A stretch of DNA of 23,909 nucleotides from a virus, in the IMG/VR virus record IMGVR_UViG_3300049456_000021, positions 1-23,909 of that record. One strand, 5' to 3'. This document shows, piece by piece, positions 4,509 to 22,374 of this stretch (position 1 is the stretch's first letter; every line of letters begins with the position of its first letter). Position numbers and translations under genes: made by a program. The notes below the pieces were generated by a model, which saw only the letters and a list, made by a program, of their open reading frames with translations, did no database searches and was not told the origin of the DNA.

Positions 4509-5642
4509 TTACCCTCTTTTCTTCATGCGCTCCGCAAGCTCATCGATCGCCGGTTCCATGTACTTCCCGGAAACCAGGTCGAGGTCATAGCCGAGAGCGA
4601 ACTCCCTGAGCTTGTCGCGCTGCACCTTGTCACGGTCCTCGTAGGCACGCTCGAATGCCGCCACGATCTGCCCGATATAAGGCTTGGTCCACCAGCCCTT
4701 GTGGACCCCGTTCCAGAATGGCTCGCCGCCGACGTGAAGCCCGTGCGGGTTAAGCTCGGTCATCGCGGAAGCATCCGTGGTGATCACCGGGGTGCCGCAT
4801 GCCTGGGCTTCGATAATGGGCAGCCCGAAACCCTCGGCGAATGTGGTGGCGCACAGCACGTCGAGCACCCCGTACCATTCCGCCAGGTCCTCGGGGGTGA
4901 CCAGCCCGCAGGCGTAGCGGTACTGATCGACAACCCTGACCAGATCGACAATGCCCAGGTTCTCCGCGAGAGCCTCCAGGTCCTGCCCGCCTTCCTGGTG
5001 CACTCCCGTGTGCAGGGACAGGATGGCGTCCGGGTGGGTCTCATGGAATTTCGCGAAAGCCAGCATCACCTCGGGTGCTGCTTTCCTTATCGCGTCATTG
5101 TTCGCGGCGTTCATGCCGATCACGAAGTAATCGTCCACGCTCAGCTTCCCGCGTACCTCCTTGCGGTCCGCCGGGGGCTTGAACAGTTCCGTGTCGATGC
5201 CGTGAGGGACGTACACCGGGTTGTAGCCGGCGCTGATCATCCGGTCACGTCCCCACTTGCTCATCGCTATCAGCTGCGCCCCGGAGGCTTCAACGCAGTT
5301 CCTGTCCGCGAGGGACTGGGGGCGGGTGTCCACCGGAAGCCAGTGCGCTACCGGCATCTCGCGGAGCAGACCCGGGTCCATCACCCAGATGTCCCCGAGG
5401 GTGATCACCAGGTCAGGCTGGACCACCTTGGCGTGCTGCGACAGGGAAGTCGAACAGTAGTTCTGCCCCCACCCGGGGAGGATGGTGACCCCGTTCCACA
5501 TCGTCGGAGCGCCCTGCAGCCCCCAGTAGGAGCTGATCGTGACTTCATGTTCCATCTCGACTAGCTTGGGAACCCAGTTCGCGGTCTGCTGACCGTATCC
5601 GCTCGGTGCCCAGGGCGTGCAGGAATGCCAGAGAATCCTCAT
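4509..5642 (-). CDS. GT-B fold glycosyltransferase (GT4-like)
   Basis: This 377-residue protein has the two-domain layout of GT-B retaining glycosyltransferases, which move a sugar from a nucleotide donor to an acceptor. The N-terminal domain opens with a Rossmann-type strand (MRILWHSC) and a Gly-rich SGYGQQT loop at 14-20. The linker carries YVPHGIDTELF near 144-154. The C-terminal domain has EGFGLPIIEAQACG at 270-283, the E-x7-E donor-binding motif (E270, E278), followed by TPVI. ATG at 5642 is preceded by AAGGA at a good distance. It lies between the tail chaperone genes and the gp10-like gene, so the operon context is tail morphogenesis. A likely role is sugar addition to tail or capsid proteins; modification of a host surface glycan is the alternative. 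Donor and acceptor cannot be read from the sequence. Confidence 0.88.
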   Translation of the reverse strand: MRILWHSCTPWAPSGYGQQTANWVPKLVEMEHEVTISSYWGLQGAPTMWNGVTILPGWGQNYCSTSLSQHAKVVQPDLVITLGDIWVMDPGLLREMPVAHWLPVDTRPQSLADRNCVEASGAQLIAMSKWGRDRMISAGYNPVYVPHGIDTELFKPPADRKEVRGKLSVDDYFVIGMNAANNDAIRKAAPEVMLAFAKFHETHPDAILSLHTGVHQEGGQDLEALAENLGIVDLVRVVDQYRYACGLVTPEDLAEWYGVLDVLCATTFAEGFGLPIIEAQACGTPVITTDASAMTELNPHGLHVGGEPFWNGVHKGWWTKPYIGQIVAAFERAYEDRDKVQRDKLREFALGYDLDLVSGKYMEPAIDELAERMKKRG

Positions 5643-12145: not shown

Positions 12146-12427
12146 CTAGTTCGTTGAGCTGATCAGGTAGCAGAAGGTGGCGGCAGTCGCGTTGCCCGTG
12201 GTGGCGAAGAAGGTGAGCCCGCTGCTGCCCACCACCGTCTCGGTGTTCGTCGGGGTCGGGGTAACGGTCAGCCCATTGGTGCTGCTCACTTTGGTGCTGC
12301 TCCCCAGGAACACCGACTGAGCCTGCGACGGCTGGTAGAAGAACAGGTTGCAGTAGCCCGGGGGGGCAGTGAAGGCTGGCACCGTAGCGTTCCCCGGGAC
12401 CGTGACCGTGCCCATGACATAGGACAT
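12146..12427 (-). CDS. Small beta-rich decoration-like protein, tandem paralogue B
   Basis: The 93-residue product is rich in Thr, Ser, Val and Gly and lacks charged clusters, as expected of a small virion surface beta domain. It aligns with the upstream gene: MSYVMGTVTV against MAYVMGQIVV, PPGYCNLFFY against PAGLCNVTFW, and VFLGSSTKVSSTNGL against VYVGSSTSVTSANGL. The similarity shows a tandem duplication. The ATG lies three bases after the stop of the upstream gene, with only a weak binding site, so coupled translation is likely. The V-x-x-G-x-x-x-V-x-x-x-x-G-L pattern is also seen in the capsid-side decoration-like gene at 16283. Decoration of the capsid or head-fibre function is inferred. 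Confidence 0.78.
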   Translation of the reverse strand: MSYVMGTVTVPGNATVPAFTAPPGYCNLFFYQPSQAQSVFLGSSTKVSSTNGLTVTPTPTNTETVVGSSGLTFFATTGNATAATFCYLISSTN

Positions 12428-12430
12428 GAC

Positions 12431-12718
12431 TTACGCCTGGGCGGTCACGATGATGTAGCTGATGGTCCCGGCACCGGTTGCCGCAGTCCCGTAGAACTGC
12501 GACCCGGCGCTGCTCACGTAGTTGAAGAAGCTCGTCGGGATGGAATGGCACTGGAGCCCGTTAGCGGAAGTGACCGAGGTGCTGCTCCCCACGTAGACGG
12601 TCCCGGTCAGCGAACCGTTCCAGAAGGTGACATTGCACAACCCTGCGGGCACCCGGAAAAGGGGGACCGGACCCGTGGTATTAAGCGCAACTACAATCTG
12701 CCCCATGACATAAGCCAC
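12431..12718 (-). CDS. Small beta-rich decoration-like protein, tandem paralogue A
   Basis: I chose GTG 12718 over the GTG at 12727 because it gives MAYVMGQIVVALN, matching the N-terminus of its paralogue, and because AGAGAG then lies eight bases upstream. The product has about 95 residues, is Thr/Ser/Val/Gly-rich and has almost no charged residues. Conserved features shared with paralogue B are the AGLCNVTFW strand, VYVGSSTSVTSANGL and a C-terminal strand region after a Gly/Ala turn. The single Cys in the NVTFW strand is conserved in both copies. A capsid decoration role fits the position and composition but is not proven. Confidence 0.78.
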   Translation of the reverse strand: MAYVMGQIVVALNTTGPVPLFRVPAGLCNVTFWNGSLTGTVYVGSSTSVTSANGLQCHSIPTSFFNYVSSAGSQFYGTAATGAGTISYIIVTAQA

Positions 12719-12750
12719 AAAACCCACTCTCTTTTAGGGCTACCACGTCA

Positions 12751-13104
12751 CTAATCTGCTTCGATCCAAGCAGAGAAGGTGTGACTAATGGAGTCTTCGT
12801 TGTGGACGACCAATTGCATAAACGAGAATGGTCCCGTGTCAGAAATAGTTTGTATCACGTAGTATGGAGCAACGAAGTCATTCGTGTTATCGATAAGGGT
12901 GACAGGATAGGTAGTTCCATCCATCCCCGCCAGAAGGCGGACCTGAACAGCACTAGTAACAGTCGTTTCGTTGAATGGTCCCACGATAATGCTTAGATTC
13001 TTTACCCCTAGCTCATAGTTAATATCTACTGTAGTGCTGTTACCAGCAGTAACAGTCACAACATCCGCTAGTTGGACCGGCACGCCGGCTGGTAGTACGG
13101 TCAT
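12751..13104 (-). CDS. Small beta-rich structural protein, AT-rich foreign-looking gene
   Basis: The 117-residue product reads as a beta sandwich: VTVTAGNSTTVDINYELG, then VKNLSIIVGPFNETTV, then AVQVRLLAG, with a C-terminal QLVVHNEDSISHTFSAWIEAD. The C-terminal NEDS-H-FSAW strand resembles small phage decoration or BIG-type domains. ATG at 13104 follows AGGAG by six bases. The gene stands out by base use: three 60-base blocks inside it that I counted average 43% G+C, against about 65% in a block of the next gene, with many A/T-ending codons. This suggests a recent transfer from a lower-GC source. It lies between the glycosyltransferase gene and the tandem paralogues. Function is inferred from shape and position. 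Confidence 0.75.
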   Translation of the reverse strand: MTVLPAGVPVQLADVVTVTAGNSTTVDINYELGVKNLSIIVGPFNETTVTSAVQVRLLAGMDGTTYPVTLIDNTNDFVAPYYVIQTISDTGPFSFMQLVVHNEDSISHTFSAWIEAD

Positions 13105-13113
13105 ATATAACTC

Positions 13114-13818
13114 CTAGAATTGGTCGAGCACCCACTTGATGTCCGGGTTGAACTTCCTGCGGAGCTTCGACACCTCAGCCGGCATGTCCACGGCACGCCA
13201 CTTCTGGAATGCCATATGGTCGCTTCGCCCCCATGCCTTCTCCGCGAAGGTGTACGTCTCGTCGTGCGGGGTGTCCGGGTCAATGGAATAGTGCTTGTGG
13301 TCCACGACCACCTGCGGGCAGAAGCGGATGAGACCCGAGCGCTTGCCCATCTCAGCCCACACGTTGTCCACGTAGTAGTGCGCGAACCCCGGGTTCATGA
13401 AATACCCGAGATGCATCACGATGTCCGAGGAGATGATGATCGTCTCCGGGATGTCATTGCGGCGCTTGTCGTCCGGGTACACCATTCCCGTGCCGTCCAT
13501 GTCCTCCGTCAGGACCTTCATCAAGATGGTGTCCCAGTGGGGGGTGGCGAACGTATTGTCATCCCCGATGAACATCAGCGCGTCATAGGAGCTGGCGCAG
13601 GCATCCGCCGTGCGGTTCACCTTGGAGACGGTGGGCTCCCTCGGCTCCAGGACCGCGTGCAGCGCACTGCCCCAGTCCATGTCCTTATAGGAGTCCTGGT
13701 CATCGGAGTCGGTGATGAACACCAGGTCCGCGTCGTCGGTCATTTCCTCGAACGACTTCAGGAACCGCTCGCAGTTCTCTCGTCTCTGACGGGTCGGGAC
13801 CATGACAAGAAGAGTCAT
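13114..13818 (-). CDS. GT-A fold glycosyltransferase (family 2-like), last gene of the sugar cassette
   Basis: The 234-residue product begins with a nucleotide-binding strand, LLVMVPTRQRREN, and carries a DxD-like metal and donor site in FIGDDN near residues 83-88. VDNVWAEMGKR near 150-160 and HKHYSID near 174-180 fit the acceptor-side region of inverting GT-A enzymes. It resembles phage and environmental transferases of the glycosyltransferase 2 type. The ATG at 13818 overlaps the stop of the epimerase gene (TAATG). It would transfer the sugar made by the two upstream epimerase/dehydratases. The acceptor might be one of the neighbouring Ser/Thr-rich surface proteins. That is inference from gene order; the family fit is good. 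Confidence 0.82.
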   Translation of the reverse strand: MTLLVMVPTRQRRENCERFLKSFEEMTDDADLVFITDSDDQDSYKDMDWGSALHAVLEPREPTVSKVNRTADACASSYDALMFIGDDNTFATPHWDTILMKVLTEDMDGTGMVYPDDKRRNDIPETIIISSDIVMHLGYFMNPGFAHYYVDNVWAEMGKRSGLIRFCPQVVVDHKHYSIDPDTPHDETYTFAEKAWGRSDHMAFQKWRAVDMPAEVSKLRRKFNPDIKWVLDQF

Positions 13819-14678
13819 TACGGACCTTTCAGTGCTTCAGTGATGCCTTCTTCGACAAGCATCGCCGGCGTGTAGAATTCGAGTAGCCTCTCCGGGCATC
13901 CCACCCGGTATATAAGCCCCTCAGGCTTATCCGCCGTGCTGATCTCCGGGTCATATCCTGCCTGCTCCGCGAAAAGGGCAATCAGCTCCCGCAGGCTGAG
14001 CGCCCTCCCCGTACACAAATTAACAGGTCCGTCAATTTCCTTCACTGCCATAGTGATGATTGCTCTCACCACATCCTTGACGTGAATGAAATCACGGACC
14101 TGATTGCCTGTTCCCCACACCGTCACCGGGTTCCGGCGCTCCCTGAACTGCAGGGCGATGTTGGCGAACGGGAATACCGGGTCCTGACCTGACCCGTACA
14201 CGGTGAACGGGCGCACCACCGAAACCGGGACGCTGGACCGCGATGCCAGCACTTCCCCGGTGAGCTTCGCCCACCCGTACAGCTCGTCCGGAGCCCAGGT
14301 GTCTGTCAGGTCGATATCTTCTTCGTAAAGCGCGCCGCCCAGCGTCCTCTGGAGCCCCGCCGGATACGCGGCGACAGAAGAGACGTAGACGATTCTCCCG
14401 GGCTTGACATGCTCAGCCCACCGGAATAGTCCCGCATCTATTTCCAGGTTCTCCGCATGCGCCATGGGGCTCTCTATGAGAACCCTTCCCCCGACCACGG
14501 CGGCGCAGTGGATCACCAGGTCGTAACGGCGGGACGGGGAATCCCAGTCACGGAAGAAATCCCTGGCGTCGATACCTGTGCGCTTGTCCACGCGGGTAAG
14601 CGAATGCCCCTGCTCTACCAGCGTCGCGGCGATGACGCTCCCGATGAAGCCCGCCGAGCCGGTCAGCAGGACCCTCAC
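13818..14678 (-). CDS. NAD-dependent sugar-nucleotide epimerase/dehydratase (short-chain dehydrogenase fold), copy 2
   Basis: The 286-residue product has the extended short-chain dehydrogenase pattern. The Rossmann motif GSAGFIG is at residues 7-13, the catalytic Ser lies in YVSSVAAY near 98-105, and YxxxK is YGWAK (Y134, K138). The C-terminal substrate part has VVRPFTVYGSGQDPVFPFAN and VRDFIHVKDVVRAI, typical of UDP- or dTDP-sugar epimerases and dehydratases. It is slightly shorter than usual (about 300-330). The start is GTG at 14678, whose GTGA overlaps the stop of copy 1. Its presence next to copy 1 suggests two successive steps on one nucleotide sugar. The exact sugar cannot be named. 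Confidence 0.88.
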   Translation of the reverse strand: MRVLLTGSAGFIGSVIAATLVEQGHSLTRVDKRTGIDARDFFRDWDSPSRRYDLVIHCAAVVGGRVLIESPMAHAENLEIDAGLFRWAEHVKPGRIVYVSSVAAYPAGLQRTLGGALYEEDIDLTDTWAPDELYGWAKLTGEVLASRSSVPVSVVRPFTVYGSGQDPVFPFANIALQFRERRNPVTVWGTGNQVRDFIHVKDVVRAIITMAVKEIDGPVNLCTGRALSLRELIALFAEQAGYDPEISTADKPEGLIYRVGCPERLLEFYTPAMLVEEGITEALKGP

Positions 14679-15565
14679 TTGCCGAACACCTTACGGTAGT
14701 GAACTATCGTCTCGTGGAGCCCGTCTTCGAGGCTGACGAGCCCGTCCGAGACGATCCCTGGCACGAGCCGACTGATGTCTGCCAGCACCTCTGAACCAGG
14801 AGTTTCGCCCGGCCGCATGGGCAGGTGCTCGATTGCTGCGTTTATCCCTGTTTCGCGCCATACCTCAGCTTTGACAGCCTCTGCGATCTGGCGGACGGAA
14901 GTCCTGCGCCCCGTCCCTGCGATATGCGCCCGTCCGTGCTCCGGACCGTTCTCCAGCGCCGTCACCAGGCACCGTGCCACGTCCATGACGTAGATCATGT
15001 CCATGACCTGAGCACCGTCCCCGTACACCTGGATGGGCTCTCCGTGCAGTGCCCTGGCGACGAAAGAGGGGATGATCTTCCGCACCCGGGACGATCCGTA
15101 CGGCTGGGCAACCGACTGCCCGGGACCGTAAGCGTTGTAGGCACGCACGCTGCATACCGGGGTCTTCCGGTATCTCGCGTACATGACGGCGAAACGCTCC
15201 ACCGTGTTCTTGGAGATCGAGTACGTCGAGTACTCGAAGTAGTTGCCCACCGCGATGTTCACCAGCGGCACCTTGTACTGGGTGCAGGCTTCCAGCACGT
15301 TGAGCCCGCCCTGGATGTTGGTCTCCGCAGCGGGGCGGGGATTGGTGATCGTCTCCGAGGTCCCCAGGACGCCAGCCAGGTGGATCACGCCATCGACATG
15401 GGCGACAGCCTCGGTGACAGCGGTAGCATCCCGGATGTCCCCGAGAATGACCTCCAGGTCGCTGCCATGTCGGTCGAATATCACCGGAGTATGCCCGCGA
15501 TGCTCCAGTTCGGCAGCTGTCGCGCGTCCGATGAAGCCATTGCCGCCGGTTACGAGTACCCTCAT
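14675..15565 (-). CDS. NAD-dependent sugar-nucleotide epimerase/dehydratase, copy 1
   Basis: I placed the start at ATG 15565 because it begins directly with MRVLVTGGNGFIG and overlaps the stop of the 40-codon gene by ATGA; a longer version would add 20 residues out of place for this fold. The product has 296 residues. The Rossmann motif GGNGFIG is at 7-13, a GDIRD loop at 42-46, IHLAGVLG at 61-68, and the catalytic YSISK has Y115 and K119. The substrate part has RAYNAYGPGQ and YGDGAQVMDMIYVMDVA. This is the extended SDR family used for GalE-like, RmlB-like and related reactions. It acts upstream of copy 2 in the cassette. Confidence 0.88.
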   Translation of the reverse strand: MRVLVTGGNGFIGRATAAELEHRGHTPVIFDRHGSDLEVILGDIRDATAVTEAVAHVDGVIHLAGVLGTSETITNPRPAAETNIQGGLNVLEACTQYKVPLVNIAVGNYFEYSTYSISKNTVERFAVMYARYRKTPVCSVRAYNAYGPGQSVAQPYGSSRVRKIIPSFVARALHGEPIQVYGDGAQVMDMIYVMDVARCLVTALENGPEHGRAHIAGTGRRTSVRQIAEAVKAEVWRETGINAAIEHLPMRPGETPGSEVLADISRLVPGIVSDGLVSLEDGLHETIVHYRKVFGK

Positions 15566-15684
15566 GGGGCATCGTGCTTCGCGCAGTAGGGGAAGTTCTT
15601 GCCCGTGCACTTGTACTGACTGCACGTGTCGTTCCTGCGAGCGTTATCTATCCACTCGCGGATTTTCCGCTGCCGGGACTTCAT
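15562..15684 (-). CDS. 40-residue Cys-rich peptide inside the sugar cassette
   Basis: A 40-codon frame runs from ATG 15684 to TGA 15562-15564. Its start overlaps the stop of the methyltransferase gene by ATGA and its stop overlaps the ATG of the epimerase gene by ATGA. That double overlap and the absence of any gap are strong support for a real gene. The product is basic at the N-terminus (MKSRQRKIREWIDNARRN) and ends in a cluster of three Cys and one His within CSQYKCTGKNFPYCAKHDAP, which could bind a metal. No family is recognised. It may be a small accessory subunit, or it may keep ribosomes moving between the two enzyme genes. Confidence 0.72.
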   Translation of the reverse strand: MKSRQRKIREWIDNARRNDTCSQYKCTGKNFPYCAKHDAP

Positions 15685-16223
15685 GCGCGCCTCTTCAGGA
15701 TCGCCATGCCATAGCGGTACAAGATGAACTCGCACTCGCTATCGCGCTTGCGCAGCAGACGGAGGAAACTGCCCGCTGTTTCCAGCATTACCGGATCATA
15801 GGCTCCGTCTGCATGGCGCGAGACCCCGATGAACCAGTCTTCCACCACGTAATACCCGCCGGGACGTACCAGCTTCCACAGCAAGCCGAAGCTTTTCCGG
15901 GTGAGCAGCCCGTCGTGACTCGCGTCGTCCACGATCAGGTCGAAAAGACCCCCCAGCTTCCCGGGGAGTTCCCTGTCGTCCTGAAGTGAGACGATTCTCG
16001 CCGTGCCGTCCGGCCACACTGCGTCCGGATTGGCGTCAACGCCGATGATCTCGCCGCAAGGGAAAAGCCCCTGGAACATCCGGAGCGATTCCCCGTTTTC
16101 CACGCCCAGCTCGCAGACCCTGGCATGAGGACCCAGTTCTGCTGCAAGACTCAGGTACGTGGTGAAATACCCGTGCGGCTCAACCTTGTCCGTATCCCAT
16201 GTGGACTTGACCGTTGACCTCAT
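15681..16223 (-). CDS. Class I SAM-dependent methyltransferase (TylF/MycE-like sugar O-methyltransferase type)
   Basis: The 180-residue product begins after a good AAAGG site at ATG 16223. Motif I is CELGVENGESL near 37-47, followed by the acidic ribose-binding residue in GVDANPD (D63). DLIVDDASHDG at 96-106 matches the acidic metal-binding loop seen in the TylF/MycE group of metal-dependent sugar O-methyltransferases, and PGGYYVVEDWF at 121-131 is typical of the same group. It is shorter than many of these enzymes. As the first gene of the coupled cassette it may methylate the sugar made by the epimerases or already attached to a carrier. The domain call is strong and the substrate is inferred. 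Confidence 0.85.
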   Translation of the reverse strand: MRSTVKSTWDTDKVEPHGYFTTYLSLAAELGPHARVCELGVENGESLRMFQGLFPCGEIIGVDANPDAVWPDGTARIVSLQDDRELPGKLGGLFDLIVDDASHDGLLTRKSFGLLWKLVRPGGYYVVEDWFIGVSRHADGAYDPVMLETAGSFLRLLRKRDSECEFILYRYGMAILKRRA

Positions 16224-16282: not shown

Positions 16283-16789
16283 TCAGACAACGCCGGCAGT
16301 AGAGCGGAGCTGTGCCGGAAGTGCTATTGCAGCCTGGGCGGCACCCGCAGTCTTGTGGTCATACAGAAGCGGCGTGACCGTCAGGGTGGCAGTGCCGCCG
16401 CCGGCGGTAATCTGCACGAGTTCCGAACCAGCTCCGGTGCCCACCAGGACGTATGCCCCGGTGACAGTACCCGTGCCCGAAGTAACGGCAAGGGAGGTCG
16501 CCCCCGCGTTAGCCGGGGCGGTCAGGGTAGTGGCGGCAGCCGTGGTGGAATACCCGGAACATGCGTAAAGGTTCACGTTGACGTTCTGGAGCTTTACCGG
16601 GACGTTCCCCGGGAGCAGCGGGAATCCGCTCGCCGGGCTGACACCAGCCCCCCCGATGTAAACAGTGCCCCCGGAGCCCTCATTGGAAAGCCTGACCGTG
16701 GCGGGTGCGCCGGGAGTGGGCGTGAATACCTGCACCCCTACCGGGGTCAGGTTGATGTGCTGATCTACCCCTGGACCGAGGTTCGGCAT
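16283..16789 (-). CDS. Beta-rich head decoration-like protein
   Basis: The 168-residue product is dominated by Gly, Ala, Thr and Val with few charges. Its N-terminal half has VRLSNEGSGGTVYIGGAGVS, then GFPLLPGNVPVKL and VNLYACSG, the strand-turn pattern of small phage head-decoration and head-fibre proteins. The second half has TTLTAPANAGATSLAVTSGT then VTGAYVLVGTG and ELVQITA, a beta repeat often seen in phage surface domains. ATG at 16789 follows AAGGAGG by four bases, a strong site. The VYIGG pattern links it to the pair at 12146 and 12431. Surface location is inferred. Confidence 0.75.
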   Translation of the reverse strand: MPNLGPGVDQHINLTPVGVQVFTPTPGAPATVRLSNEGSGGTVYIGGAGVSPASGFPLLPGNVPVKLQNVNVNLYACSGYSTTAAATTLTAPANAGATSLAVTSGTGTVTGAYVLVGTGAGSELVQITAGGGTATLTVTPLLYDHKTAGAAQAAIALPAQLRSTAGVV

Positions 16790-16819: not shown

Positions 16820-17161
16820 TCAGACGTACGAGACGTTGGTGCCGTAGCCGACCGAAGCGGTGCCGGCGGTACCAGGGCTGAGTGCCTTGATGACCGAGCC
16901 GGCGGGAACCTGGCACTGGGACAGGATGACCGTGCCCCCGGAGGGGACCTGGAAGCTGCCGGTCGTGGTGCTGACCGGGGAGCCTGCGGTGGTCTGCGCC
17001 ACGAAAATCGTGGTCGCCCCGGAGTTGGTTACGACGAGATCCCTCGGGTAGAGGTAGGTGCCTGCGGTAGCAGCGAACGCGGCAGTCGGAACCGTGTAAA
17101 GCGCGGTGTCGGTTGTAGCGACCGCTGCATTATTGACAACCCACTGAGCGGCAATTGCCAC
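16820..17161 (-). CDS. Small decoration-like capsid protein
   Basis: The 113-residue product has a beta-rich Thr/Val/Ala/Ser composition, with LVVTNSGATTIFVAQTTAG, FQVPSGGTVILSQCQVPAG and TASVGYGTNVSYV, and no catalytic motif. GTG at 17161 sits behind AAGGAGAAGT, and the DNA from this site into codon 2 is identical over 17 bases to the initiation region of the major capsid gene. That points to strong expression and a shared origin for the leader. A high-copy capsid decoration protein is the best reading. A hairpin at 17215-17249 lies upstream. Confidence 0.75.
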   Translation of the reverse strand: MAIAAQWVVNNAAVATTDTALYTVPTAAFAATAGTYLYPRDLVVTNSGATTIFVAQTTAGSPVSTTTGSFQVPSGGTVILSQCQVPAGSVIKALSPGTAGTASVGYGTNVSYV

Positions 17162-17691: not shown

Positions 17692-19605
17692 TTACGAGAA
17701 CGGCGTAACGTCGCTGACCTGGAGACCCTGCAGAATGCCGCTGTACATGGGCGCGTGCGCCACGAGGCTGCCCAGCAGGAAGATGCTGTAGCGGAAGGTG
17801 GCGTCGATGACCGGCCATGCAACACTGATGTAGTCCTGCACCACGGTCATCTCCCATGCGTTGTCCACGTGGCTCCAGGTCTGAGGCAGCTGGTAGCTCA
17901 TGAGCAGCGCGGTGCCCTGGGACATCCAGGGGTGAACAGTCAGCTTGACGGTGCTGCGGGTGACAGGGTTAACAAACTCTGCCACGGCGGCACCTGCGCG
18001 GATACCAGAGATCTGGTCCTGGCTGATGTTCAGGAGGTAGTTGAGGCTGTTGCCCTGCAGCAGCATGTCGTTGGCGAGACGCATGAGGTCACCGCCGTCG
18101 GCGACGATCTCGGAGGGGTCTGCCTTGTAGACGCCAGGCGCAACGTTGTTGAGCCCGTTGTTCTCCCAGAGTGCATCGAGTGCAGTGAAGATAGCGTTGG
18201 TGCTCAGGTGAGTGCCGACACCCTGGTTGACATAGCCGCCCTTCCAGACGTTCGCGGACTCGAAGCCCACGTTCGCGTAAGGACCGGAGCCGTTCGCGGA
18301 CAGCCCGGACAGGGTGGGGATGAGCCCCTCCATGCGGTTGGAGCCGCCGGTGCCGGTGTCTGCAGCCGGGGGAGCGACGGCAGATGCCAGCGCACCCTGG
18401 ACGGTGAACCGGATGCCGCCGACCGCGTTCGCGGTCTGCACGCCCTGGCTGGTGACGCCCGCCTGGACCGTGGTCCCTGCCTGCAGGAAAGAGGTGGCGA
18501 TGGAGACGGTGGCGTTCGTGCTGACGTAGATGTTGTACTGCTGAGCCCCGGGAACCGGGACAATCGTGACATCCGCGACAACCCCGCCTGCGCGGGATGC
18601 GGTGAGGTCCGTGGAGATCGGCGAGCCGATGGTCTCCCCGAAGAAGTTCAGCGCGGTCACGGACACGGCGAAGTGACCGGCAGTACCGCCGGTGATCGCC
18701 GTCTCGTTGGAGCCCGGAGTACGGAATGCCGCAGTCACCTGACCGGGAGTCGGGAGGTTCTGAGAGGAGCCAGCCATCATCTGGTACTCCTCGCCCAACA
18801 TCATCTCCTGCAGGAGAACAAGGTTGGCGAGCGCGGAAACATCCTCGAAGCCCTGACCCTCGAACTGAGCGAGCCACGAGAGGGACTCAGTGAGACCGAA
18901 GAAACGGTAGGGGACAGAGAGCTTGAACTCAGTCTGCTTGCCGGTACCCGGGAGGTTCAGCGGCCAGTTGGTGCCGCCGATGCTGGTGGCGCTGGACTGG
19001 ACAAGCTCCGGGATGGAGATGTCCACGATGCCCTGACCGCCGGTCTGCGAACCGGAGATGCCGAGCAGGCCGTACACCTGGCGAGCCGCACCCTGTCCAG
19101 CGGGACGGGGGAACTTGTTGCGGAACAGGGTGTAGACGGGGTAGATGAGGCGGCTGGGTGCCAGCAGGTCGAAGGGGACCAGTCCGTAGGGGACGCCGTT
19201 GAGACCCAGGTTGCCTGCGGTGAAGCTCTTGTTCAGCTGGGCGCTCTGGTTCAGCTGGTAGCTGAGAGGCGCGAAGCTGCGGTGCTGCTTGAAGTCCGTG
19301 GCGAGCGAGCCGAGAACCGCGTCGGTGTCGCGAACGCCCCGCATGGTAGCGGTGCGCACGTCGAGTGCCGCCTGGGTTGCCTTGGTCAGGATCTCCCCGG
19401 AGTGACGCCCCTCCTGAAGGGGAACGCCATTGTTGGTCACGTGACCAACGCCCTTTACCAGGTCCTTCGCCTTGGTGGTGAAGAGAGCCTCGTAGTCGGA
19501 CCGGCGGGCTGCCGCGCCCATCTGGGCATTGACAGCGCCAATAGGTGCGCCAGCACCCATGGAAGGAGCAGCAAGCTCCTCATTCGTGGTCAGGATATCT
19601 GCCAC
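17692..19605 (-). CDS. Major capsid protein with inserted Ig/Fn3-like domain
   Basis: The 637-residue product follows the protease/scaffold gene, the normal place for the HK97-fold capsid subunit. Residues 225-275 (FKLSVPYRFFGLTESLSW, then DVSALANLVLLQEMMLGEEY) fit the P-domain spine helix region, and residues 490-610 (SEIVADGGDLMRLAND, then a C-terminal VKLTVHPWMSQGTALLMSYQ) fit the A-domain and E-loop side. At about 285-405 there is a beta-rich insert with FAVSVTALNFFGETIGSP and VPGAQQYNIYVSTN, the pattern of Fn3/Ig-like modules, which explains the large size. The N-terminal 100 residues may be cleaved or act as a delta-like region. The start is GTG 19605 behind AAGGAGAAGT. Residue ranges are approximate. 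Confidence 0.85.
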   Translation of the reverse strand: MADILTTNEELAAPSMGAGAPIGAVNAQMGAAARRSDYEALFTTKAKDLVKGVGHVTNNGVPLQEGRHSGEILTKATQAALDVRTATMRGVRDTDAVLGSLATDFKQHRSFAPLSYQLNQSAQLNKSFTAGNLGLNGVPYGLVPFDLLAPSRLIYPVYTLFRNKFPRPAGQGAARQVYGLLGISGSQTGGQGIVDISIPELVQSSATSIGGTNWPLNLPGTGKQTEFKLSVPYRFFGLTESLSWLAQFEGQGFEDVSALANLVLLQEMMLGEEYQMMAGSSQNLPTPGQVTAAFRTPGSNETAITGGTAGHFAVSVTALNFFGETIGSPISTDLTASRAGGVVADVTIVPVPGAQQYNIYVSTNATVSIATSFLQAGTTVQAGVTSQGVQTANAVGGIRFTVQGALASAVAPPAADTGTGGSNRMEGLIPTLSGLSANGSGPYANVGFESANVWKGGYVNQGVGTHLSTNAIFTALDALWENNGLNNVAPGVYKADPSEIVADGGDLMRLANDMLLQGNSLNYLLNISQDQISGIRAGAAVAEFVNPVTRSTVKLTVHPWMSQGTALLMSYQLPQTWSHVDNAWEMTVVQDYISVAWPVIDATFRYSIFLLGSLVAHAPMYSGILQGLQVSDVTPFS

Positions 19606-19635: not shown

Positions 19636-22374
19636 TTATTCGGGGATGTCGCCCCGGTGCCGAAGGAGAGCGTTGTAGGCAGCTTCCCGCTCCGCAGGAT
19701 TCTCGCTGGTCCGCCATGTACGCTCAAGCTGGCGGATCATCATTCCCTGAATGCGCTCGTGGTGCTCAGCCTGCTTGACGATCCCCGCCGGGGCATTCTT
19801 CGTCACAGGATTGTTGAGCGCGAGACCGGCAAAAGCGGCAGTAGACGGGTCAGGCTGGTTAGCCAGTGCATCCCAGCGCTGGTCGTTTACCGTCAGCCGC
19901 TGCCGGTAACTGTCGATCTCGGTATTCTGAGCCGCGATCTTCTCCTCGTAAGATGCATTCCGCTCTTCGAGGGCGGTGATCTTTACCTGGAGGGGCTCAA
20001 GGATCTCCGACATCATGGTCTTCATGAGGTCGGGAGTCAGTGCACTGGCTCCTGCAGCCTTGCTGATGTCAGGAGCAGTAACGGGTGGTGCCTGAACAGC
20101 CTCAGGCTCGGGCTCGATGCCCAGCGCCTTGCGGACCTCGCCGATGGAGGTGATGCCCTGCCGGACCTGCTTGTGCAGGGACGCGGCATAGCGCTTGGCA
20201 GCCTTGCGGCTCAGCTTCTCGCGCGCCTGCTCCTCGGTGATCTCGCCGAGCAGGACCCGCGCCTCCAGCTTGCGGATGTCCTTGTAGACATCTGCCAGCA
20301 CCGCGCCGGTCTCGGTGACCTCGATCTCCTTGTGACCGACCGCCGCGATCGGGTGCGCGCCGACATTCTCCTGGCGGTAGGCATCCTGGTCGAGCATCGG
20401 GCACGAGGACGGGAACATGTGGTTCAGGTGGTCGTGCAGCATCGACAGCGCGCGGCGTGCCTTCTCCTTCTCGATCTCCGCGTAGCGGATCTGAGTGGGA
20501 ACGCCCTGCTCAGCGGGGTACTCGAAGTCAGCCTTCATGTGGCTGGGGCTCGGGGACTGGTGCCCGCCGCTCAGCGGGGGACGCCCGAAGCCGTGCGCGT
20601 TCGGCCGCGTGTCCGGGACCTTCGCACTGGAGTTCGGCGAGCCGTAGCCCTCGCTGAGCTGGGAGTGCCCGTCCGTGATGACCGGGCGGTGGAACTTCCC
20701 GGGGCTCATCTCGCACGGGGTCGGGTACGAGGTGGGACCGGGGTTGGCATCCCGGAACGCCTTGTACGCCTCGAACCGGTACTGGTTGACCTCGCCCTGG
20801 TCGGTCGCCTTCAGGATGGAGACCGCCTGCCATGCCTGCTGCGCCTCCATCGCCTCGGTCAGCGACTTGCCGGTCGCGGCGTTCAGCGCCTTGCGCTGCC
20901 ACAGGTCGGTGTCGATGAGGGTGTCCACGCCTGCCAGCGGGAAGAGCTGGGCGATCTCGTTGGGGTTGTACGCCGGGCAGGTGAAGTCGTGCAGCATGCC
21001 AAGGTCGGTGTCCATGCCGATGGTCTTGTAGCGCATCAGCACGTCCGTCGCGCCCTTCATGTGGGGCTTGGCGGGAGACTCGTGCAGCTCGGGCAGCGGT
21101 GCCGTCTCGGGCTGCTGCGTCTCCTTCGGCGCGGGCAGGGGACCGCACTTGTCGGTGTGCTCGTGCTCCTCGGCGCAGCCGGCAACCTTGGTGCTGTCGT
21201 CAGCATCCGGCTTGTTCAGCCACGGGGGAAGCTTCTTGCCAGTCTTCTTCTTGCCGCCCTTAGCGGGGGGCGCGGAAGCCTTGGCTGCCTCGGGGGCACC
21301 GGCGTGCGGCTCGGGGATAACCGGCTTGTCGTCAGCGTCATTGTCGCCGTCGCCGACTTCCGGGTCCTTGGTGATAGCCGGCTCGTCCGCCTTCTCGACC
21401 ACGGGCTCGGTCTCGGAGGTAATGACCTTCTCGGTATCACCACTGTCGAGGGGATTATCCACACCCAACTCTCTTGCTCGCCGGGCGATCAGCTTTCGCG
21501 CTTCCGCCACGTTGCCATGCCCGGAGCGCGCCAGGATGGCTGCGCGACGAAGGGCGTCAGTATCCGGAATCGGGTAAGACCCGTCCGGGAGTGCATGTCC
21601 GGCCGAAGCCTGCTGCCGGCGCTGGTCCACGGAGAAATCGCGGTGGTCCTTGCCCAGCAGCTCTGCCTCCGCGTCGGCGATAGCCTTCGCGGCAAGCTCG
21701 TTGTAGTGGCGCTTGACGATCTTGTCCTGCATGATCTTCATGAGATCGTTGGGCGTGAAATTGATGTCGAAGTCCGAGGGAACCTCGAAGTCCGTGATGT
21801 CGTCCTTGGTCACGGTCGCGCCCAGCGCCTTGGCGATGGCGGCTTCGTCGCCGAACAGCTCGCCGGTGAACTCGGCGTGCCCGTCAACGGACTTGACCAG
21901 CTGGAAACCGCACTGGGCATTAGCCGGGCGGTCTACCAGGGAGATCTCCACGATCTTCCCGGACTTGATGATGCCGCCGCGTGCCTTGCCGGTCATGTCG
22001 CGCTCGATAGAAGGATTCGCGATGCCCACCGAGTAAGCCCGCAGGACTCCCTTGGAGACGAGCTTCTTGGCGGCGTCCTCTACGATCAGCGCCTTCACCC
22101 AGGTTGCGCCGTCCGGGTCGGTGTGCGCCTCGACGCCGATGCCAGCCGGGTCACGCTGGGGATTGTGCTGGACGCGGACATTGCCGCCGGTTGCCAGCCA
22201 TTCGGCGATAGCCTTGGAGCTGAAGTCAGGGTGAACGATCTGCTGATCGTGATCGACAGAGCCGTCAGTGGCGCGGCCGTAGACCATGAGGTCGCCGTCA
22301 GGAGTGCTCTCAACCTTCTCGATGCCAAAGGAGACGTAAGTCAGCTCTCCGGAATCGGTCAGTGTCGTCGCCAC
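19636..22374 (-). CDS. Prohead maturation protease fused to scaffold-like domain
   Basis: The 912-residue product begins at GTG 22374 behind GGAGG. Residues 25-155 match an S78/XkdF-like phage serine protease: H70 in VQHNPQRDPAG and S115 in LRAYSVGIANP are the likely catalytic pair, with EISLVDRPAN at 143-152. Residues about 245-310 contain DFSVDQRRQQA, LPDGSYPIPD and ARKLIARRARELG, a DUF6582-like helical module. A Cys/His-rich middle (GCAEEHEHTDKCG) and an acidic Pro-rich linker follow. The last 150 residues have a coiled coil (LEPLQVKITALEERNASYEE) typical of scaffold segments. The protease and scaffold appear fused, as in lambda gpC/Nu3-type organisation. The cut sites are not visible from sequence. 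Confidence 0.85.
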   Translation of the reverse strand: MATTLTDSGELTYVSFGIEKVESTPDGDLMVYGRATDGSVDHDQQIVHPDFSSKAIAEWLATGGNVRVQHNPQRDPAGIGVEAHTDPDGATWVKALIVEDAAKKLVSKGVLRAYSVGIANPSIERDMTGKARGGIIKSGKIVEISLVDRPANAQCGFQLVKSVDGHAEFTGELFGDEAAIAKALGATVTKDDITDFEVPSDFDINFTPNDLMKIMQDKIVKRHYNELAAKAIADAEAELLGKDHRDFSVDQRRQQASAGHALPDGSYPIPDTDALRRAAILARSGHGNVAEARKLIARRARELGVDNPLDSGDTEKVITSETEPVVEKADEPAITKDPEVGDGDNDADDKPVIPEPHAGAPEAAKASAPPAKGGKKKTGKKLPPWLNKPDADDSTKVAGCAEEHEHTDKCGPLPAPKETQQPETAPLPELHESPAKPHMKGATDVLMRYKTIGMDTDLGMLHDFTCPAYNPNEIAQLFPLAGVDTLIDTDLWQRKALNAATGKSLTEAMEAQQAWQAVSILKATDQGEVNQYRFEAYKAFRDANPGPTSYPTPCEMSPGKFHRPVITDGHSQLSEGYGSPNSSAKVPDTRPNAHGFGRPPLSGGHQSPSPSHMKADFEYPAEQGVPTQIRYAEIEKEKARRALSMLHDHLNHMFPSSCPMLDQDAYRQENVGAHPIAAVGHKEIEVTETGAVLADVYKDIRKLEARVLLGEITEEQAREKLSRKAAKRYAASLHKQVRQGITSIGEVRKALGIEPEPEAVQAPPVTAPDISKAAGASALTPDLMKTMMSEILEPLQVKITALEERNASYEEKIAAQNTEIDSYRQRLTVNDQRWDALANQPDPSTAAFAGLALNNPVTKNAPAGIVKQAEHHERIQGMMIRQLERTWRTSENPAEREAAYNALLRHRGDIPE

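Follow-up and report, generated by a model that had tools for sequence, protein, structure and literature searches.

In the papers that we found, virion glycosylation has been shown for only a few mycobacteriophages. Capsid and tail-tube proteins of mycobacteriophages are reported to be modified (PMC11600133, PMC12363180, PMC12619734, each of which cites Freeman et al. 2023). Virion glycosylation has been shown experimentally for Che8 and Corndog; the capsid and tail tube are reportedly modified in Corndog (PMC11600133), and Che8 gp110 is said to be required for glycosylation of the capsid (PMC12363180). Corndog gp35-gp38, an O-methyltransferase and three transferases, are encoded inside the virion operon (PMC4351075). 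Here, we analyzed a 23.9-kb soil phage record (IMG/VR IMGVR_UViG_3300049456_000021, positions 1 to 23,909, the whole of which is called the window), in which a five-gene sugar cassette lies among virion genes. We found that the last gene of this cassette, the glycosyltransferase gene GT_A, is constant among relatives and that the genes before it are exchanged, and we consider a virion glycosylation locus with an exchangeable set of sugar-tailoring genes to be the likely, and best, reading of this arrangement.

The window shares with the Che8 and Corndog systems a glycosyltransferase accompanied by a sugar-type O-methyltransferase and, with Corndog, their location in the virion structural operon. 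Compared by its published description, Corndog resembles it in having an O-methyltransferase and transferases among head genes, but no genes for epimerases of nucleoside diphosphate sugars (NDP-sugars) are described (the word "epimerase" occurs 0 times in PMC4351075), and the Corndog transferase genes lie between portal and protease, whereas the window cassette follows the capsid gene. Che8 gp108-gp110 are likewise transferases encoded by stop-start coupled genes and include an O-methyltransferase domain of the sugar type, the C-terminus of gp108 matching Methyltransf_24 and TylF; however, they lie near the genome end, and the region examined has no annotated sugar-synthesis genes next to them. 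PF13578 is common to the gp108 C-terminus and the window methyltransferase (the window match falling just under the cut-off) and the two domains align at 31 bits pairwise, but gp108 was not picked up by the window methyltransferase family profile at E 0.01. In Actinoplanes phage phiAsp2 (Pas33/Pas34), a GT_A domain (29% identity) is fused to Methyltransf_24 and adjoins the putative major head protein, with translational coupling annotated in the operon as in the window. Unlike the window, phiAsp2 has a single fused protein, of putative function, and no epimerases annotated nearby.

Results

A stop-start coupled cassette in the head operon

The virion genes of the window are all on the minus strand, along which a protease-like gene is followed by the probable major capsid gene, three small genes, the sugar cassette and more virion genes (Table 1). 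The five cassette open reading frames (ORFs) are on the same strand, from 16223 to 13114, and encode a methyltransferase, a 40-residue microprotein, two epimerase/dehydratases (EPI1 and EPI2) and GT_A. The first-pass annotation had described this cassette as stop-start coupled, and indeed all ORFs and junctions could be read from the sequence: ATGA at the methyltransferase/peptide junction (TCAT at 15681-15684) and the peptide/EPI1 junction (TCAT at 15562-15565), GTGA between EPI1 and EPI2 (TCAC at 14675-14678) and TAATG between EPI2 and GT_A (CATTA at 13816-13820). Purifying selection acts on each of the five genes, with ratios of non-synonymous to synonymous substitution (dN/dS) relative to the closest relative, L004, of 0.23 for the methyltransferase, 0.25 for EPI1, 0.24 for EPI2, 0.39 for GT_A and 0.05 for the peptide, the most constrained product of the five. 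Since the virion genes flanking the cassette on either side are separated by gaps of 3-100 bp with no overlaps, since the coupling is repeated in relatives, where 53 of the 73 junctions within slots are overlapping or touching, and since dN/dS is low for all five genes, the coupling is more than a chance arrangement.

A constant transferase and exchanged neighbors

The cassette is not one fixed unit but a constant GT_A with swapped preceding genes. A capsid search gathered 35 related viral loci, in which genes were called by a simple script trained on these sequences and the end of the slot was set by GT_A; contigs may be incomplete. A search for related cassettes, as the annotation had proposed, found the same slot beside virion genes in 22 distinct relatives with a complete slot, and in these GT_A (about 43-61% identical) stands after the gene g16283 and just before the g12431/g12146/g11784 virion genes; the window GT_A likewise lies between g16283 and the next virion genes. 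The interval from g16283 to GT_A ranges from 14 to 6550 bp, vs. 13-104 bp for the neighboring interval from g16820 to g16283. L004 has the window's slot type, and L007 has EPI1, EPI2 and the peptide in common with it. A second type, with an epimerase, a C-methyltransferase and a cupin, occupies the slot in seven loci (L005, L008, L009, L016, L026, L027, and L080). Elsewhere, the slot holds DegT aminotransferases (L006, L015, and L019), a UDP-galactopyranose mutase (PF03275; L034), UDP-arabinopyranose-mutase-like genes (PF03214; L011 and L033), SIS and low-molecular-weight phosphatase genes (L019), or GT2 and GT17 transferases and a hexapeptide acyltransferase; three loci have a single gene before GT_A (L010, L020, and L025) and one has GT_A alone (L029). 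Overall, 26 of the 30 slot proteins tested matched carbohydrate or methyltransferase families. The capsids of the window and L005 are 87% identical, and GT_A is the only slot gene that they have in common. When corrected for capsid distance, GT_A distance tracked cassette sharing across 23 loci (Mantel test, partial r -0.30, permutation p 0.0004); a transferase that is matched to its donor would produce such a pattern.

The sugar-nucleotidyltransferase family PF00483 was found in none of 12 related records, suggesting that the starting material is probably a host NDP-sugar. A slot gene in each of two relatives (L012:11459-12154 and L020:12881-13585) has a nucleotidyltransferase-like N-terminal signature, with no Pfam match at E 0.001.

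The transferases and their wider relatives

GT_A matches phrog_14945 (E 3.6e-31). Because its profile had no sequence match in the PDB at E <= 1, the fold was predicted instead. The AlphaFold (AF2) model, with a predicted local distance difference test score (pLDDT) of 96.5 and a predicted template modeling score of 0.92, matched GT-A enzymes such as AvpGT, WrtF, RmlT, SpsA, and GalNAc-T2 by Foldseek (E 3e-9), and Asp positions D37, D39, D40, and D87 are invariant. By its predicted fold, GT_A is a GT-A-fold (GT2-like) glycosyltransferase, of a family for which we found no close relative of known structure. A second glycosyltransferase, GT_B, is encoded toward the tail side of the operon. GT_B immediately precedes GT_A or lies within the same slot in several distant viral loci, suggesting that the window GT_B is probably a partner of GT_A and part of the pathway.

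Every named relative of GT_A comes from a phage that infects actinobacteria, and the host of the window is likely actinobacterial. When about 85,000 species genomes of bacteria and archaea were scanned with a 7-sequence profile of GT_A, this pattern-limited scan gave one relative, in a Micromonospora rosaria prophage with an unrelated capsid; a capsid relative was sought in the Micromonospora genome and not found. The prophage order is terminase, portal, protease, capsid, another transferase, GT_A, major tail protein and tape measure. We also observed that phrog_2675, labeled DNA methyltransferase, has the GT_A domain as its N-terminus (L090:8992-9681 and L096:6001-7791). Because of this, and because the C-terminus of phiAsp2 Pas34 is Methyltransf_24, the label is probably wrong.

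Sugar-modifying enzymes and the microprotein

The window methyltransferase matches phrog_21658, weakly matches the Methyltransf_24 class and also matches the macrolide sugar O-methyltransferases MycE (PDB 3ssm, E 2e-12) and TylE (8ia9, E 1e-6), with which it shares the DDxSH...ED motif kept throughout its family. Its residues D100, H103, E128, and D129, invariant across eight family members, are the counterparts of D275, H278, E303, and D304, which we take to be the metal and catalytic residues of MycE. In contrast to MycE and TylE, the window protein consists of the catalytic domain only (180 vs. about 400 aa) and has another substrate context.

EPI1 matches PF01370 (E 4.5e-41), phrog_540, and PDB 4zrm, and the family alignment has GxxGxxG and YxxxK. 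The catalytic Ser/Thr before YxxxK is absent, an invariant V-G-N and a shortened loop being present in all 12 aligned sequences. Judged from this alignment, EPI1 is a distinct, unusual phage-encoded subfamily of the short-chain dehydrogenases/reductases (SDR), marked by the invariant V-G-N. The subfamily also occurs in Microbacterium phage Magritte, where it is annotated as UDP-glucose dehydrogenase, and in Streptomyces phage Satis. In Magritte, EPI1 and two transferases are encoded upstream of the terminase gene. EPI2 matches PF01370 (E 1.2e-33) and, in the PDB, MoeE5 and GDP-fucose synthase, and carries SSV and YxxxK motifs. The microprotein is joined by ATGA overlaps at both ends and is found in three loci, the window, L004 (90% identity), and L007 (50%), always directly before EPI1 with an ATGA overlap; peptide-only searches gave no copies beyond these. 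The C/C/C/H microprotein was seen with EPI1 only.

Virion genes around the slot

As the annotation had noted, the neighbors of the cassette are Ser/Thr-rich: Ser plus Thr (S+T) make up 19.6-31.2% of g16820, g16283, g12751, g12431, and g12146, and charged residues are below 5% in four of these five, with about 12% in g12751. The small Ser/Thr-rich families on both sides have means of 24-27% S+T and 2-4% charged residues (27% and 2% for g12431 and g12146 jointly), and they evolve faster than the capsid protein. The g16283 protein is conserved in relatives, is predicted to be all-beta (AF2, pLDDT 88) and weakly matches phage structural proteins; its fold had no match in the PDB below E 0.001. A second g16283-family copy lies further downstream in the operon of L006 (20406-20912). 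No family match was obtained for g12751 in profile searches. Common ancestry of all three small Ser/Thr-rich families is not claimed, as profile comparison gave only 32-37% probability.

The capsid genes of six relatives (L027, L029, L034, L036, L037, and L076) are interrupted by about 0.3-1.6 kb near residues 150-160, 232, 260, or 595. The interruption that was checked, in L029, has stops in all three frames, which argues for introns rather than inteins. Neither the window nor any of seven relatives matched an Rfam group, the capsid-gene interruptions included.

Table 1. Coordinates of the cassette and of the operon genes discussed in the text.
Feature	Position	Strand	Length	Remarks
Head maturation protease-like protein	19636..22374	-		phrog_80, E 1.2e-6
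Probable major capsid protein	17692..19605	-		upstream of slot; follows protease-like gene; 23% identity to MMB025 "major head protein"
g16820	16820..17161	-		small, Ser/Thr-rich, low-charge, virion-like; candidate acceptor
g16283	16283..16789	-		upstream slot border; Ser/Thr-rich (S+T 19.6%), low-charge, all-beta, virion-like; candidate acceptor
Methyltransferase	15681..16223	-	180 aa	sugar O-methyltransferase, MycE/TylE type
Microprotein	15562..15684	-	40 aa	basic; C-x4-C-x7-C-x2-H, possible zinc knuckle
EPI1	14675..15565	-	296 aa	extended-SDR nucleotide-sugar epimerase/dehydratase
EPI2	13818..14678	-	286 aa	extended-SDR nucleotide-sugar epimerase/dehydratase/reductase
GT_A	13114..13818	-	234 aa	predicted GT-A-fold glycosyltransferase; constant last slot gene
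g12751	12751..13104	-	117 aa	Ser/Thr-rich; directly after GT_A; seen in this window only
g12431	12431..12727	-		downstream slot border; small, Ser/Thr-rich, nearly uncharged; after GT_A in most relatives; candidate acceptor
g12146	12146..12427	-		paralogue of g12431 (40% identity); candidate acceptor
GT_B	4509..5642	-		second glycosyltransferase (GT4/group 1); PF00534, E 1.5e-13; phrog_2170

Discussion

The first-pass annotation had proposed that the cassette could be a complete unit for building a sugar and attaching it to capsid surface proteins. The presence of sugar-modifying enzymes and a transferase inside the head operon agrees with the virion part of this proposal, and virion glycosylation, supported by GT_A relatives in head-tail operons, even in the unrelated Micromonospora prophage, and by the phiAsp2 fusion beside a head gene, is probably what the locus serves. 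The word "complete" has to be given up, since PF00483 was missing from the related records and GT_B, encoded elsewhere in the operon, probably takes part.

Several observations weigh against virion glycosylation. In phages of Streptomyces and Arthrobacter, distant named relatives of GT_A are found away from virion operons, with other transferases and a nucleotidyltransferase as neighbors, indicating that the family is used in more than one context, and L037, a distant relative, is without a full GT_A in its slot. The Mantel correlation is of modest size, and cassette sharing also keeps a smaller partial correlation with capsid distance (p 0.008); common descent therefore accounts for some of the signal. 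We found no acceptor motif, and the richness in Ser and Thr can be explained simply by beta-sandwich virion proteins. Finally, BLASTP and profile searches gave no significant similarity between GT_A and Che8 gp109 or gp110; the window module is therefore classed as working like the Che8 and Corndog systems rather than as homologous to them.

An alternative is that the cassette adds a sugar to the host envelope and thereby blocks superinfection, in the manner of serotype conversion. The pyranose mutases in relatives' slots (PF03275 and PF03214) would suit such a role, since enzymes of this kind produce furanose donors that are known from the cell walls of actinobacteria, and the structural neighbors of GT_A include the teichoic-acid transferases TarS, TarP, and RmlT. 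However, the slot genes tested include no flippase or polyprenyl-transferase family of the gtrABC type, only 4 of the 75 proteins in the slots exceed the 19-residue hydropathy threshold of 1.6 (maximum 1.95), and the conserved placement in the late head operon, even in an unrelated prophage, fits virion modification better. The annotation had allowed that homologous cassettes might always sit beside host lipopolysaccharide or glycolipid genes, and the close relatives of GT_A lie in virion operons instead. We regard modification of the host surface as unlikely.

The narrow range of slot genes and the retention of GT_A as the last of them also bear on the idea that the slot is an ordinary cargo (moron) island, in which sugar genes gather where insertions are tolerated and have no effect on the virion. 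Slot gene content is highly variable and other operon intervals carry variable ORFs as well, as such an island would predict, but its genes are also coupled and under purifying selection, and we consider this explanation quite improbable. It is very improbable that the cassette serves DNA hypermodification, providing a sugar and placing it on a modified base of the phage DNA. Phage-encoded glycosyltransferases that act on DNA are known (PMC12619734), and phrog_2675, with its GT_A-type N-terminus, bears the label DNA methyltransferase; yet the corresponding part of Pas34 matches Methyltransf_24, the class weakly matched by the window sugar O-methyltransferase. Moreover, a thymidylate-synthase-like gene (dCMP hydroxymethylase class) is absent from seven of nine related records searched, which may be fragments, and the genes in synteny with the cassette are head genes rather than replication genes.

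If the locus does glycosylate the virion, EPI1 and EPI2 would, during late expression, make a different hexose or deoxyhexose donor out of a nucleotide sugar of the host, and GT_A, perhaps with GT_B, would move this sugar onto Ser/Thr of phage structural proteins. The most plausible acceptors would be the small, uncharged and Ser/Thr-rich products of the genes flanking the slot on either side, or else the capsid or tail-tube protein. The methyltransferase may then add an O-methyl cap to the transferred sugar, the zinc-knuckle-like 40-aa peptide probably helps EPI1, and stop-start coupling would hold the enzymes in proportion. In relatives, replacement of the cassette before GT_A by other sugar pathways would make the sugar coat of the particle vary like a serotype.

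This logic recalls bacterial O-antigen and capsule loci, which work alike in that variable sugar genes lie between conserved genes and are exchanged in blocks; in contrast, the phage slot is without a detected flippase or polymerase, lies in a head operon and is ended by one constant transferase. Virion glycosylation modules themselves are already known; the exchange of sugar cassettes before a constant transferase may be new. No variable virion-sugar locus was described in the literature that we found, which is weak evidence of novelty, as subscription papers were not covered. We give about even chances to the broader idea of a phage "virion serotype" locus, in which a clade of soil phages keeps its transferase and structural acceptors and swaps whole sugar-building cassettes (conceivably for a methylated hexose, a branched deoxysugar, an amino sugar, or furanose sugars), diversifying the particle glycan. 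If this is true, these phages would have particles with variable sugar coats, and the selecting force might be receptor use, soil surfaces, predation, or competing phages. The natural variants of the slot would then be a ready set for finding donor and acceptor specificity.

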